From Auricularia sp. M13 (lineage: Eukaryota > Basidiomycota > Agaricomycetes > Auriculariales > Auriculariaceae), in assembly GCA_037042915.1 (NCBI GenBank), contig CM073199.1, forward strand, positions 2,418,001 to 2,482,000: DNA of 64,000 nt, in the 5' to 3' direction. Positions within the stretch are counted from its first letter, which is position 1; every line of letters starts with the position of its first letter. Shown one piece after another: positions 40,683 through 45,900 of the stretch. The notes beneath the pieces were generated by a model. The model saw only the letters and a list, made by a program, of their open reading frames with translations. It ran no database searches and was not told the origin of the DNA. The translations under genes were made by a program, and so were the position numbers.

Positions 40683-41872
40683 GCCCCGCTCCCCCCCTGT
40701 GCGCGTGCACGTGAACCCGTGGCTGCTGGGGGAGATGCCGCGGCCGCCCTGCCCTCAACGGACGGGCTGGGCTGTGTGCTTTCCCCCGTGTCTTGCCTTG
40801 CCTTGCTATGCGCCGCGCTCCCCCTCCCCCATCGCGGAGTGCGCCTCCCCCCCCCCTGCATTAGGCTGGGGGGATCTATGTCTTCTCTGATTTGACTGAC
40901 CGACTGGTTTTGGTTACCAAGTTATTAACACTATACTTCCTCGCTCGAGCCCCATATTCTGTCTTTGTGCCCAATGTGTGTTTTTCCGCTCGAATATCTC
41001 GCCCACCATTTTGATCTGGCCCCCCTCTCCCTATCTCTATCTCTCATCTTGCTGTCCCCTCCCGCTGTCCATCCTTGTTTCGTGTTCACTTTTTTTCTTT
41101 TTTTTTCCCTTTGGACTGGAGTCACCCGACCTCGGATTGCGATTCGCTGGGTCTGTGTACATTCCCATCTCTGCTCACTGCCTGCATCCATCGTACTATA
41201 GTATACGGTCTGTGCTGGTACATATAATACAGTATTGCGCCTCGCGTTTAACATTTGCTGTAACTCCGACTCGTGCCACTCGCTCCTTCTGTCGGACTGC
41301 AACTTCGGGATGTCTTTGGGTCCACCGGGTGACGAACTTGGATTTTCGAGCATGGTGATCACGTCAGCGCGCTGAGTCAGTGTGGATCTCTGTGGTTGAC
41401 GTAAGCGTGTACACCCAGGTACCGGTACCGGTGGTTACATAAATTGATGCCGGGGATTTGGGTGACGGTCTCCACTCAGTACTCAGAGTCTGCAACTCGC
41501 TGAAAGGACAGACTTGAGGAACTTGAATGTTGGATGTTGGAGTCGGAGATGACTCTGGCCCGTTTCGCAGTGACGTGACGTTACAGTAGAACACGAAATG
41601 GATTTACAGTTCAGACATTCGAAGGGCCGATCATAGTTTTTGTCCATTCTTCGTTCGGTCTATGCGACCTTGCCATTGATAATATTACTGTAATAATTTT
41701 TTACGTCCGTGGATACTGTATAGACATACTTTTTCAAACACCGACATGACACCTTGATCCCGAACAGTGAACAGTGAAAATGATCCCGCGCGTCACTCGT
41801 CGACTCACTGGAGCGCGGCTGATGTCGTCCATGCACCATCAGTCCGTGACATATCTTGCTGTGGTTTCTCTT
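40683..41872. other. Intergenic, pyrimidine-rich then AT-richer, no gene
   Basis: 3' region of BAG gene 2, with C/T-rich tracts (about 40690-41120), then sequence becoming AT-richer. No supported gene. It leads into the broken kinase-like gene. Confidence 0.5.
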
Positions 41873-41968
41873 ATGAACTTTAATTCGTCAACGCCGCACA
41901 GTGCTTACCCCTATCGCCCGGGAAACTCGCTGGAGCTGACCTGGTGCAGCCCAACGGACAGCTCGCGT

Positions 41969-42476
41969 CAAGGGGTGTCCAAGAAAAAAAAAAGTTACAC
42001 AGGGTCCAAAAAACGAAATAAGCTCTCCAGCGGACCCCTCCCTCCCTCCCTCCTGCCTAATCCGGTAATATCTTCCCACGCATTTGCCTCCGGGTATCTA
42101 GAACCGCTAACTCCGGGATCATCGCGATAATCCCTGGTTTTTTTTTGTCATTATCCCAAGTATCTAAGTCACCAATTCAACGTCTCAGTATTCAGACACA
42201 TGATTATCAAAGTTATTCCTGAATCAGACCCAACCTGTACTCAAGGAGTGGATGGTCTCTAATGACCTACTTGTGAATAGTATGCTGCATGTTAGGGTTC
42301 AAACAAGGTTCACACCACAATTTCAGGTGGTCATACAAGTCTTGGGACCTTCTATGCAGCTTCGAGATGAATTTCGGAGGCAAATACTCATTTTTCAAAA
42401 AACGAAATAAGGTCCTCATCGGACCCCTCCCTCCCTCGTCCTCGTGCTATCGGATTTTGCCGATGGACACCCCTTG
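41969..42476 (+). mobile_element. Non-autonomous hAT-like element, 508 bp, with 8-bp target duplication
   Basis: Perfect 13-bp terminal inverted repeats: CAAGGGGTGTCCA at 41969-41981 and TGGACACCCCTTG at 42464-42476. Flanks are identical 8-bp direct repeats GCTCGCGT at 41961-41968 and 42477-42484. An 8-bp duplication and CA-starting G-rich ends are typical of hAT transposons. No transposase frame fits in 508 bp, so it would move only with help from an autonomous relative. Internal features: two 42-bp subterminal modules in direct orientation and a 20-bp near-perfect palindrome at 42115-42134 (GGGATCATCGCGATAATCCC). The insertion lies inside the kinase-like coding frame. Strand is arbitrary. 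Confidence 0.8.
42007..42437. repeat. Subterminal direct repeats of the hAT-like element
   Basis: Copies at 42007-42048 and 42396-42437. Each has CAAAAAACGAAATAAG, eight variable bases, then CGGACCCCTCCCTCCCTC. The left copy begins 25 bp inside the left terminal repeat and the right copy ends 26 bp before the right one. They are in direct, not inverted, orientation, so they are not an extension of the terminal inverted repeat. Possible transposase-binding modules. Confidence 0.75.
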
Positions 42477-42710
42477 GCTCGCGTCGCAAGATTCAAGCTA
42501 CCATTCGGAAGACGCTCAGCGACGTCGAGGCCAACGGGTGCGTCATGCTCGTGGATTTTGCTGCGGCGCCGCACGGCTCCGAGTTCGAATCGGGCTTGCC
42601 GCCGACTGCGACGCTGAAGCTGTTCGATCGCCGGTTCTGCGACGGCGGGAGTAACCGGTTCGACCGCCCTTGGACGCCCGAGGTCGAAGATAAGTATGTT
42701 TATCTGTAAA

Positions 42711-42999: not shown

Positions 43000-45900
43000 A
43001 TAGGATGGTGGGAGAAAGTACGAGTAAATCCAGACAATGTCTGAGGTCACTGCTGGTGATCAGAACTGACTCTATTTCATCCAGTAAAGCGATTAGGGTG
43101 AGAAAACACACTTTAATGTGAAGCGGTCAGGCCACTCTCTCTGGGCAGATCGTCTGCCGTCAATGGTGCGAGAAAGCAGCAGTAATTCCAGATATTGCCT
43201 GGGGTCTCCGCTGCAGACTGGAGTGGTGTCTACTGAATTCGGATGACCCCTGAAGGCGAGTAAACACCCTATAATGCGAAGTGGTCAGGCCACGCTCGCT
43301 GGGCAGATCGTCTGCCTTCGATGGTGCGAGAAAGCAGGAGGAATTCCAGACATTGTCTGGGGTCCCCGCTGCAGACGGGAGTGGTGTCTAGTGAATTCAG
43401 ATGATTCCTCATGGTGAGAGAACACATTGTAATGTGAAGTAGTCAGGCCACGCTCGCTGGGCAGATCGTCTGCCTTTGATGGTGCGAGAAAGCAGCAGCA
43501 ATTCCAGACATTGCCTGGGGTCTCCGCTGCAGACTGGAGTGGTGTCTAGTGAATTCGGATGATTCCTCATGGTGAGAGAACACACTGTAATGCGAAGTGG
43601 TCTGGCCACGCTCGCTGGGCAGATTGTCTGCCGTGGATGGTGCGAGAAAGCAGCAGCAATTCCAGACATTGCCTGGGGTCTCCGCTGCAGAGTGGAGTGG
43701 TGTCTAGTGAATTCAGATGACCCCTGAAGGTGAGAGAACACACTGTAATGCAAAGTGGTCAGGCCACGCTCGCTGGGCAGATCGTCTGCCTTCGATGGTG
43801 CGAGAAAGCAGGAGGAATTCCAGACATTGTCTGGGGTCCCCGCTGCAGACGGGAGTGGTGTCTAGTGAATTCAGATGATTCCTCATGGTGAGAGAACACA
43901 TTGTAATGTGAAGTAGTCAGGCCACGCTCGCTGGGCAGATCGTCTGCCTTTGATGGTGCGAGAAAGCAGCAGCAATTCCAGACATTGCCTGGGGTCTCCG
44001 CTGCAGACTGGAGTGGTGTCTAGTGAATTCGGATGATTCCTCATGGTGAGAGAACACACTGTAATGCGAAGTGGTCTGGCCACGCTCGCTGGGCAGATTG
44101 TCTGCCGTGGATGGTGCGAGAAAGCAGCAGCAATTCCAGACATTGCCTGGGGTCTCCGCTGCAGAGTGGAGTGGTGTCTAGTGAATTCAGATGACCCCTG
44201 AAGGTGAGAGAACACACTGTAATGCAAAGTGGTCAGGCCACGCTCGCTGGGCAGATCGTCTGCCGTGGATGGTGCGAGAAAGCAGCAGGATTTCCAGACA
44301 TTGCCTGGGGTCTCCGCAGCAGACCGGAGTGGTGTCTAGTGAATTCAGATGACCCATGATGGTGAGAAAACACATTGTAATGCGAAGTGGTCAGGCCACG
44401 CTCGCTGGGCAGATCGTCTGCCTTCGATGGTGCGAGAAAGCACCAGGAATTCCAGACATTGTCTGGGGTCTCCGCTGCAGAGTGGAGTGGTGTCTAGTGA
44501 ATTCAGATGACCCCTGAAGGTGAGTAAACACCCTGTAATGCGACGTGGTCAGGCCACGCTCGCTGGGCAGATCGTCTGCCTTCGATGGTGCGAGAAAGCA
44601 GGAGGAATTCCAGACATTGCCTGGAGTCTCCGCTGCAGACTGGAGTGGTGTCTAGTGAATTCGGATGACCCCTGAAGGTGAGTAAACACACTGTAATGTG
44701 AAGTAGTCTGGCCAAGCTCGCTAGGCAGATCGTCTGCCTTGGATGGTGCGAGAAAGCAGCAGGAATTCCAGACATTGCCTGGGGTCTCCGCAGCAGACCG
44801 GAGTGGTGTCTAGTGAATTCAGATGACACCGAACGGTGAGAAAACTCACTGTAATGCGAAGTGGTCAGGCCACGCTCGCTGGGCAGATCGTCTGCCTTCG
44901 ATGGTGCGAGAAAGCAGGAGGAATTCCAGACATTGTCTGGGGTCTCCGCTGCAGACTGGAGTGGTGTCTAGTGAATTCGGATGATCCCTCATGGTGAGAG
45001 AACACATTGTAATGTGAAGTAGTCTGGCCAAGCTCGCTAGGCAGATCGTCTGCCTTGGATGGTGCGAGAAAGCAGCAGGAATTCCAGACATTGCCTGGAG
45101 TCTCCGCTGCAGACTGGAGTGGTGTCTACTGAATTCGGATGACCCCTGAAGGTGGTAAACACCCTGTAATGCGAAGTGGTCAGGCCACGCTCGCTGGGCA
45201 GATCGTCTGCCTTGGATGGTGCGAGAAAGCAGCAGGATTTCCAGACATTGCCTGGGGTCTCCGCTGCAGACGGGAGTGGTGTCTACTGAATTTTGATGAC
45301 CCTTGATGGTGAGAAAACACACTGTAATGCAAAGTGGTCAGGCCACGCTCGCTGGGCAGATCGTCTGCCTGTGTTGGTGCGAGAAAGCAGCAGGAATTCC
45401 AGACATTGTCTGGGGTCTCCGCTGCAGACTGGAGTGGTGTCTAGTGAATTCGGATGACCCCTGAAGGTCAGTAAACACCCTGTAATGCGAAGTGGTCAGG
45501 CCACGCTCGCTGGGCAGATCGTCTGCCTTCGATGGTGCGAGAAAGCAGGAGGAATTCCAGACATTGCCTGGAGTCTCCGCTGCAGACTGGAGTGGTGTCT
45601 AGTGAATTCGGATGACCCCTGAAGGTGAGTAAACACACTGTAATGTGAAGTAGTCTGGCCAAGCTCGCTAGGCAGATCGTCTGCCTTGGATGGTGCGAGA
45701 AAGCAGCAGGAATTCCAGACATTGCCTGGGGTCTCCGCAGCAGACCGGAGTGGTGTCTAGTGAATTCAGATGACACCAAACGGTGAGAAAACTCACTGTA
45801 ATGCGAAGTGGTCAGGCCACGCTCGCTGGGCAGATCGTCTGCCTTCGATGGTGCGAGAAAGCAGGAGGAATTCCAGACATTGCCTGGAGTCTCCGCTGCA

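Follow-up and report, generated by a model that had tools for sequence, protein, structure and literature searches.

The window analysed here, a stretch of 64,000 nucleotides from Auricularia sp. M13, carries a non-autonomous element of 508 bp (41969..42476, + strand), one of at least 11 full-length copies in the genome. The element is enclosed by target-site duplications that match exactly (GCTCGCGT, at 41961..41968 on the left and 42477..42484 on the right), and is bounded by 13-bp terminal inverted repeats (TIRs), the left one at 41969..41981 (+ strand) and the right one at 42464..42476 (− strand); the two ends, CAAGGGGTGTCCA and TGGACACCCCTTG, are complementary at 13 of 13 positions. The length, perfect inverted ends, and identical 8-bp flanks reported in the initial annotation were re-derived from the sequence, with the same coordinates and letters.

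The element interrupts a host frame, the 5′ part of which (41780..41968, + strand) shows homology to a C3 locus from approximately 23 residues before the insert, and the 3′ part of which (42485..42709, + strand) ends at a TAA. Ignoring the element and one flank copy makes the frame continuous, as had been claimed: it reads ...CSPTDSSRRKIQATIRK... from the ATG at 41780 to the TAA at 42707-42709, with a possible splice donor, GTATGT, recognized by eye near 42694. The joined peptide matches itself and two other loci in the genome, both on contig C3. At C3:1303060 the homology is unbroken across the insertion point (54 of 94 residues identical), and a weaker piece at C3:1398175 (15 of 37 identical, E 4e-5) also spans it; the latter locus is itself interrupted by approximately 0.85 kb soon after. 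Neither C3 locus has the 508 bp at the insertion point.

The target had been described as a kinase-like gene. The part of this that stands is a kinase-like remnant corresponding to an N-terminal part: the C3:1303060 homologue gives a Pkinase match (E 2.5e-5, below cut-off). The window host peptide itself matched nothing in Pfam, and no kinase body was found between the end of the host frame and the start of a satellite at 43097. Either the kinase-like sequence was already a truncated remnant when the element inserted, or truncation of the gene came later; since the host frame is an N-terminal part only and the satellite follows soon after, the loss of a working gene through the insertion is unsupported. 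The satellite, a 158-bp tandem repeat with periods of 316 and 474 as well, occupies 43097-64000 of the window (more than 20 kb) and recurs up to C7:2517187 (C7:2500363-2517187); the array would span approximately 56 kb if continuous. At least 34 matches to it were found, and those listed are all on C7, including one lone fragment at C7:2787046. The window also contains a DUF6535 gene, and the genes seem to have short introns.

Copies and ends of the 508-bp unit

The 508 bp, searched against the assembly that contains the window (52,096,326 bases, 52.1 Mb, in 14 contigs), returned at least 23 matching pieces. Of those listed, 11 are full-length copies (402–508 bp) and four are truncated to 343 bp, with the alignment starting at query position 144; the remaining eight are shorter, and two of them form the ends of a single 6.2-kb element. 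Exact 8-bp duplications surround 10 of the 11 full-length copies, and all 10 differ. The genome search that had been proposed for same-ended copies with other flanks therefore found them, and the reading of the insert as a non-autonomous transposon holds: the unit is multi-copy, with the same ends and different 8-bp duplications. The eleventh full-length copy, at C8:1234150-1234645, has CACAAAAC on both flanks, the left one being separated from the element by TTG; these three bases mirror the first bases of the element, CAA, and are perhaps a trace of repair or of a hairpin.

The 13-mer end has 26 exact matches genome-wide, and coordinate comparison placed 26 of 26 inside the listed matches to the 508-bp element; tolerating one mismatch raises the genome count to 92, versus 27 for the pattern read backwards. 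These counts, together with the 10 of 11 full-length copies bearing exact and different duplications, put the structure of the element beyond chance. One single-mismatch variant of the end, CAAGTGGTGTCCA, occurs 37 times among the matches listed, perhaps within another repeat family.

Identity reaches 98.4% between the window copy and its nearest relative and 99.2% in the most similar pair of full-length copies, so a very recent jump of the unit is not indicated. Two copies are just 83–84% identical to the window copy, yet have perfect ends and duplications. The argument in the initial annotation that perfect ends mean little decay is therefore weak, as perfect ends alone cannot date an insertion. 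The four truncated 343-bp copies are 3′ ends of the unit embedded in another repeat (C7:3504504, C7:1940658, C6:754759, and C2:1610207); three of these four stretches differ pairwise at 47–52 of 2343 positions, and the fourth at approximately 300 in an ungapped comparison. It seems that a fragment of the unit was captured, and then spread, by another element.

Conservation within the unit is highest toward its ends. Among ten full-length copies (the internally deleted copy at C3:3287335 being excluded), mean pairwise identity is 0.96–1.00 over positions 1–130 and 0.92–0.97 over positions 411–508, versus 0.78–0.91 between them. A 42-bp motif is present twice, as a left (42007..42048, + strand) and a right (42396..42437, + strand) subterminal repeat, sitting 38–39 bp from either end in the same orientation both times; both copies are candidate binding sites for the transposase. 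The right end has, just within it, a short palindrome, ATCGG-ATTTTG-CCGAT (42449..42464), which on its own is suggestive only.

CAAGGG-ended elements that carry a transposase

The ends of the unit recur on a larger element of 6226 bp (6.2 kb) at C9:117587-123812, which has the TIR CAAGGGGTGCCCA, identical to the window TIR at 12 of 13 positions, and the duplication GTCCCATC. The unit and this C9 element have the terminal 93 bp (86%) and 80 bp (91%) in common. Long open frames are present in the C9 element, and eight of them, scanned against Pfam, matched no family over the cut-off. Searches with a C9 frame and with a 932-residue frame from C11 located at least 15 transposase loci in the genome, and all 15 of those listed are enclosed by CAAGGG...CCCTTG ends. 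When seven transposase frames were compared with the window by tblastn, no match fell within the 508-bp element.

Exact 8-bp duplications are present at 13 of the 15 transposase loci. Two of the loci, C11:23753-28729 and C11:2421040-2426012, are the same element in inverted orientation with identical 100-bp flanks on both sides, indicating one segmental duplication within one contig and hence exact duplications at 12 of 14 independent sites. At 11 loci the ends and exact duplications emerged from an open search, in which inverted repeats had a minimum length of 6 to 8 bases and the 8-mers beside them could differ at one position at most (or had to be exact, in one run). A motif search was needed for C1:866246-872154 and C5:332942-338912, which have CAAGGG ends with exact duplications; at C9:1183059-1188035 and C8:2894555-2900038 the CAAGGG ends are present and the flanks differ. 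Other hits of the open search were set aside, namely three 7-bp pairs with one-mismatch flanks, and a 12-bp pair with exact flanks (C1:9360505-9367196) that encloses a CAAGGG pair. In shuffles of one locus, 0 of 200 yielded a TIR of at least 13 with an exact duplication. The large elements measure 5.0–6.3 kb, with perfect TIRs of 6–14 bp in nine short-TIR elements and of 48–118 bp in the four measured elements of one clade. The elements at C1:9360903 and C5:3584033 are 99.4% identical and have different duplications, which implies that the CAAGGG lineage moved fairly recently.

The two ends of these elements are unequal. The right end of the unit is the counterpart of the C9 end that lies upstream of the transposase, and among the nine short-TIR elements plus the unit, a palindrome with a stem of at least 4 is found at that end in 9 of 10, versus 2 of 10 for the other end. 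The palindrome adjoins the TIR or sits just within it, its stems vary (TCGG/CCGA, CCGG/CCGG, CCGGGAT/ATCCCGG, and GGCGC/GCGCC), and the opposite end is often A-rich. Folding z values for the end palindrome range from −1.0 to −4.5 in three examples; most single elements are not significant, some are close relatives, and the search window was picked after the ends had been seen. The asymmetry is a suggestive lead.

Target sites were compared on both strands for 22 insertions, 10 of the unit and 12 of large elements at independent sites (the C8 copy and C11:2421040 being excluded). The outer position is G in 26 of 44 cases (nominal p 2e-5 against assumed base frequencies), and GT occupies the outer positions in 11 of 44 (nominal p 5e-5, likewise against assumed frequencies). 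The P transposon prefers palindromic targets of the GT....AC kind. In 13 of the 22 sites there is T at position 2 or A at position 7, a feature that favors a hAT assignment.

The initial annotation had assigned the element to hAT, which would make it a non-autonomous hAT element mobilized by one of the hAT transposases of the genome. Its 8-bp duplications and CA-starting ends are compatible with this assignment but cannot separate hAT from P, nor can the 8-bp duplications separate hAT from Zisupton. The hAT dimerization domain does have at least 21 matches in the genome, among the best candidates scored. However, coordinate comparison placed 0 of the 21 listed hAT matches inside the 15 CAAGGG-ended elements, Pfam scans of the transposase frames at E up to 10 gave no match to a hAT model, and the larger relatives with the same ends encode another transposase. 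The autonomous hAT relative that had been anticipated thus exists in part: the C9 element is a larger relative bearing a transposase gene, but the encoded enzyme fits no hAT model and resembles P instead. We consider a hAT origin very unlikely. Still less credible is a Kyakuja-Dileera-Zisupton (KDZ) element. KDZ transposase domains are abundant (149 matches in the genome), and Zisupton too is described as making 8-bp duplications in PMC12730594, but 0 of the 149 matches lie inside the 15 elements and no scanned transposase frame fits the KDZ model.

We propose instead, as the probable explanation, that the 508-bp unit belongs to a CAAGGG-ended, P-like lineage as a non-autonomous (MITE-like) member, and has kept nothing but the two ends of a larger family that bears a transposase. 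A relative, for example the 6.2-kb C9 element, would supply the transposase, which would most likely bind the conserved terminal 80–100 bp or so, excise the unit, and join it elsewhere with an 8-bp stagger, repair of the staggered joint producing the 8-bp duplication. The unit would be mobilized in trans, presumably by an enzyme of which some present copy still works.

Proposed relationship of the transposase to P

The sequences scanned against Pfam, with E up to 10, were 14 main frames and 13 sequences that cover the N-terminal part, two of the 13 being full frames. The sole recurring family was TNP-like_RNaseH_N (PF21787, the RNase H domain of P), seen in 7 of the 13 N-terminal sequences with a best E of 0.0065, below cut-off; it was also seen in 1 of the 14 main frames (E 0.23), a frame that is also among the 13. 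Weak names that came up for one sequence each were attributed to chance, namely Serum_albumin (0.015), Thump_like, LSM, Urease_beta, P22_AR_C, Herpes_ICP4_N, and Tertiapin here, and DUF4329, zf-C2H2_12, and OAM_alpha in the scan of the eight C9 frames. A search of the whole genome with PF21787 at E 0.001 gave no match, and the controls were likewise unmatched. Searches of the PDB with the transposase sequences gave no match, and in Pfam and the PDB no similarity to P transposase lies over a curated cut-off. A transposase profile searched against the viral_contigs and genome_contigs collections (viral, bacterial, and archaeal sequences, with no fungi) found no confirmed relative.

A profile (26 rows, 19 after the program's filter) was aligned by hhalign with the Drosophila P transposase, the sequence of which was checked against 6p5a. 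It scored 26.5 over the helix-turn-helix (HTH) region and the first catalytic Asp, with a probability of 1.6% and a P-value of 0.031. In the shuffle control, 1 of 200 reached 26.5, that one scoring 33.3, and the mean best score was 16.9. When 46 sequences were ranked by their score with the profile (P, 16 frames of the window, and, from eight hAT loci, 29 stop-to-stop frames), P came first; frames from hAT loci came second and third (19.5 and 19.1), which is a point in favor of hAT. The three best local alignments to P are collinear, placing D172 on D230, V397 on V401, and E518 on E531; in the second and third of them, DRLE falls on DIVE of P (D515 on D528) and KQNV on KQKV. With scores of 18.7 and 16.4, these two are no higher than expected by chance, the fourth to sixth are not collinear, and a global hhalign run gave no useful alignment.

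Checked by motif, the catalytic residues run D, D, DxxH, DxxE, and the E is preceded by a long insertion. The first D is invariant in 13 of 13 sequences; the second D, DxxH, and DRLE are present in 11 of 14 main frames, and at the other three loci the second D and DxxH are in upstream frames. The D-to-E spacing is 224–258 residues compared with 228 in P. Other spacings differ from those given, in P numbering, in PMC8230255: DxxH lies 48–49 residues past the second D compared with 36, and the first and second D are separated by 119 and 134 residues in the only two frames that contain both, compared with 73. Among the GTP-binding residues of P that fall within aligned stretches, D528 and V401 have counterparts and K400 has none; the others are outside the alignments. 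One transposase locus, L044:3867-4523, has a C-terminal Cys/His pattern resembling a PHD finger (Pfam E 0.075), and similar beginnings of a Cys/His tail are seen in others.

No THAP domain was matched in the transposase frames scanned against Pfam. This may be an unfair test in a fungus, since THAP domains are stated to be absent from fungi in PMC7776569. PMC3985635 places P and hAT in one clade, where P alone is without a hAT domain, in agreement with the absence of any hAT match in the CAAGGG transposases. Together these sequence comparisons suggest that the transposase belongs to the P superfamily, as a divergent branch in which no THAP domain is detectable, with every similarity sub-threshold; with an hhalign probability of just 1.6%, membership is a reading and not a proof.

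The transposase could alternatively represent a separate superfamily, neither P nor hAT, that has an RNase H fold and a long insertion before the last catalytic residue in common with both. This is what the sub-threshold level of every similarity to P and the undetected THAP domain would lead one to expect, as would genes that seem much longer than that of P transposase, Cys/His-rich tails, and the failure of K400 and some spacings to match. The collinear alignments to P over the HTH and first D, KQxV, and DxxE, the D-to-E spacing, and the recurrence of the P-domain match argue against it, and we regard it as improbable. A more specific picture, which we put forward as tentative and rather doubtful, is that the CAAGGG elements form a distinct, recently mobile fungal superfamily between P and hAT, with a very large transposase (HTH, split RNase H, and a zinc-finger/PHD-like tail replacing THAP) and unequal ends, one bearing a short palindrome in which pairing is kept while the letters change.

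Comparison with known systems brings out both likenesses and differences. According to PMC7776569 and PMC8230255, Drosophila P has 8-bp duplications, TIRs, and non-autonomous copies from 0.5 kb, and its transposase has an HTH followed by a split RNase H carrying D, D, DxxH, and E, all as here. The Drosophila element is 2.9 kb with a 31-bp TIR, compared with 5.0–6.3 kb and TIRs of 6–14 or 48–118 bp for the CAAGGG elements, which differ further in their undetected THAP domain, D1-D2 and DxxH spacings, unmatched K400, and CAAGGG ends. In P, enzyme-bound sites lie inside the TIRs; in the unit, such sites are candidates. The zebrafish P-like Pdre2/THAP9 resembles the unit, according to PMC10983969 and PMC7776569, in having 13-bp TIRs that start with CA, 8-bp duplications, and deleted copies; however, the Pdre2 TIR (CATACCTGTCAAC) is otherwise unlike that of the unit, its host is an animal, and its subterminal repeats are inverted while those of the unit are direct. 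MITEs of hAT type have similar 8-bp duplications and CA-starting ends, but the larger relatives here have no detectable hAT transposase. Basidiomycete Zisupton/KDZ elements are alike in the 8-bp duplications reported for Zisupton (PMC12730594) and are common in this genome, but the CAAGGG transposase does not match the KDZ model.

No description of a P element in a fungus was met in the literature searched; Repbase was outside the search, and an earlier description is possible. The available portions of PMC7776569, PMC8230255, PMC9587614, PMC6416283, PMC5791352, PMC10983969, PMC3985635, PMC12730594, PMC4905642, PMC5718144, and PMC3573991 contain no fungal P element. The family label should be changed from hAT to that of a CAAGGG-ended and probably P-like lineage. 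More generally, 8-bp duplications with CA-starting ends can lead to a hAT label even though they are also left by other superfamilies. The P elements that we found in print are from animals, and the THAP domain reads their ends; a fungal P-like lineage, if true, would show a P-like catalytic core working with other DNA-reading domains.
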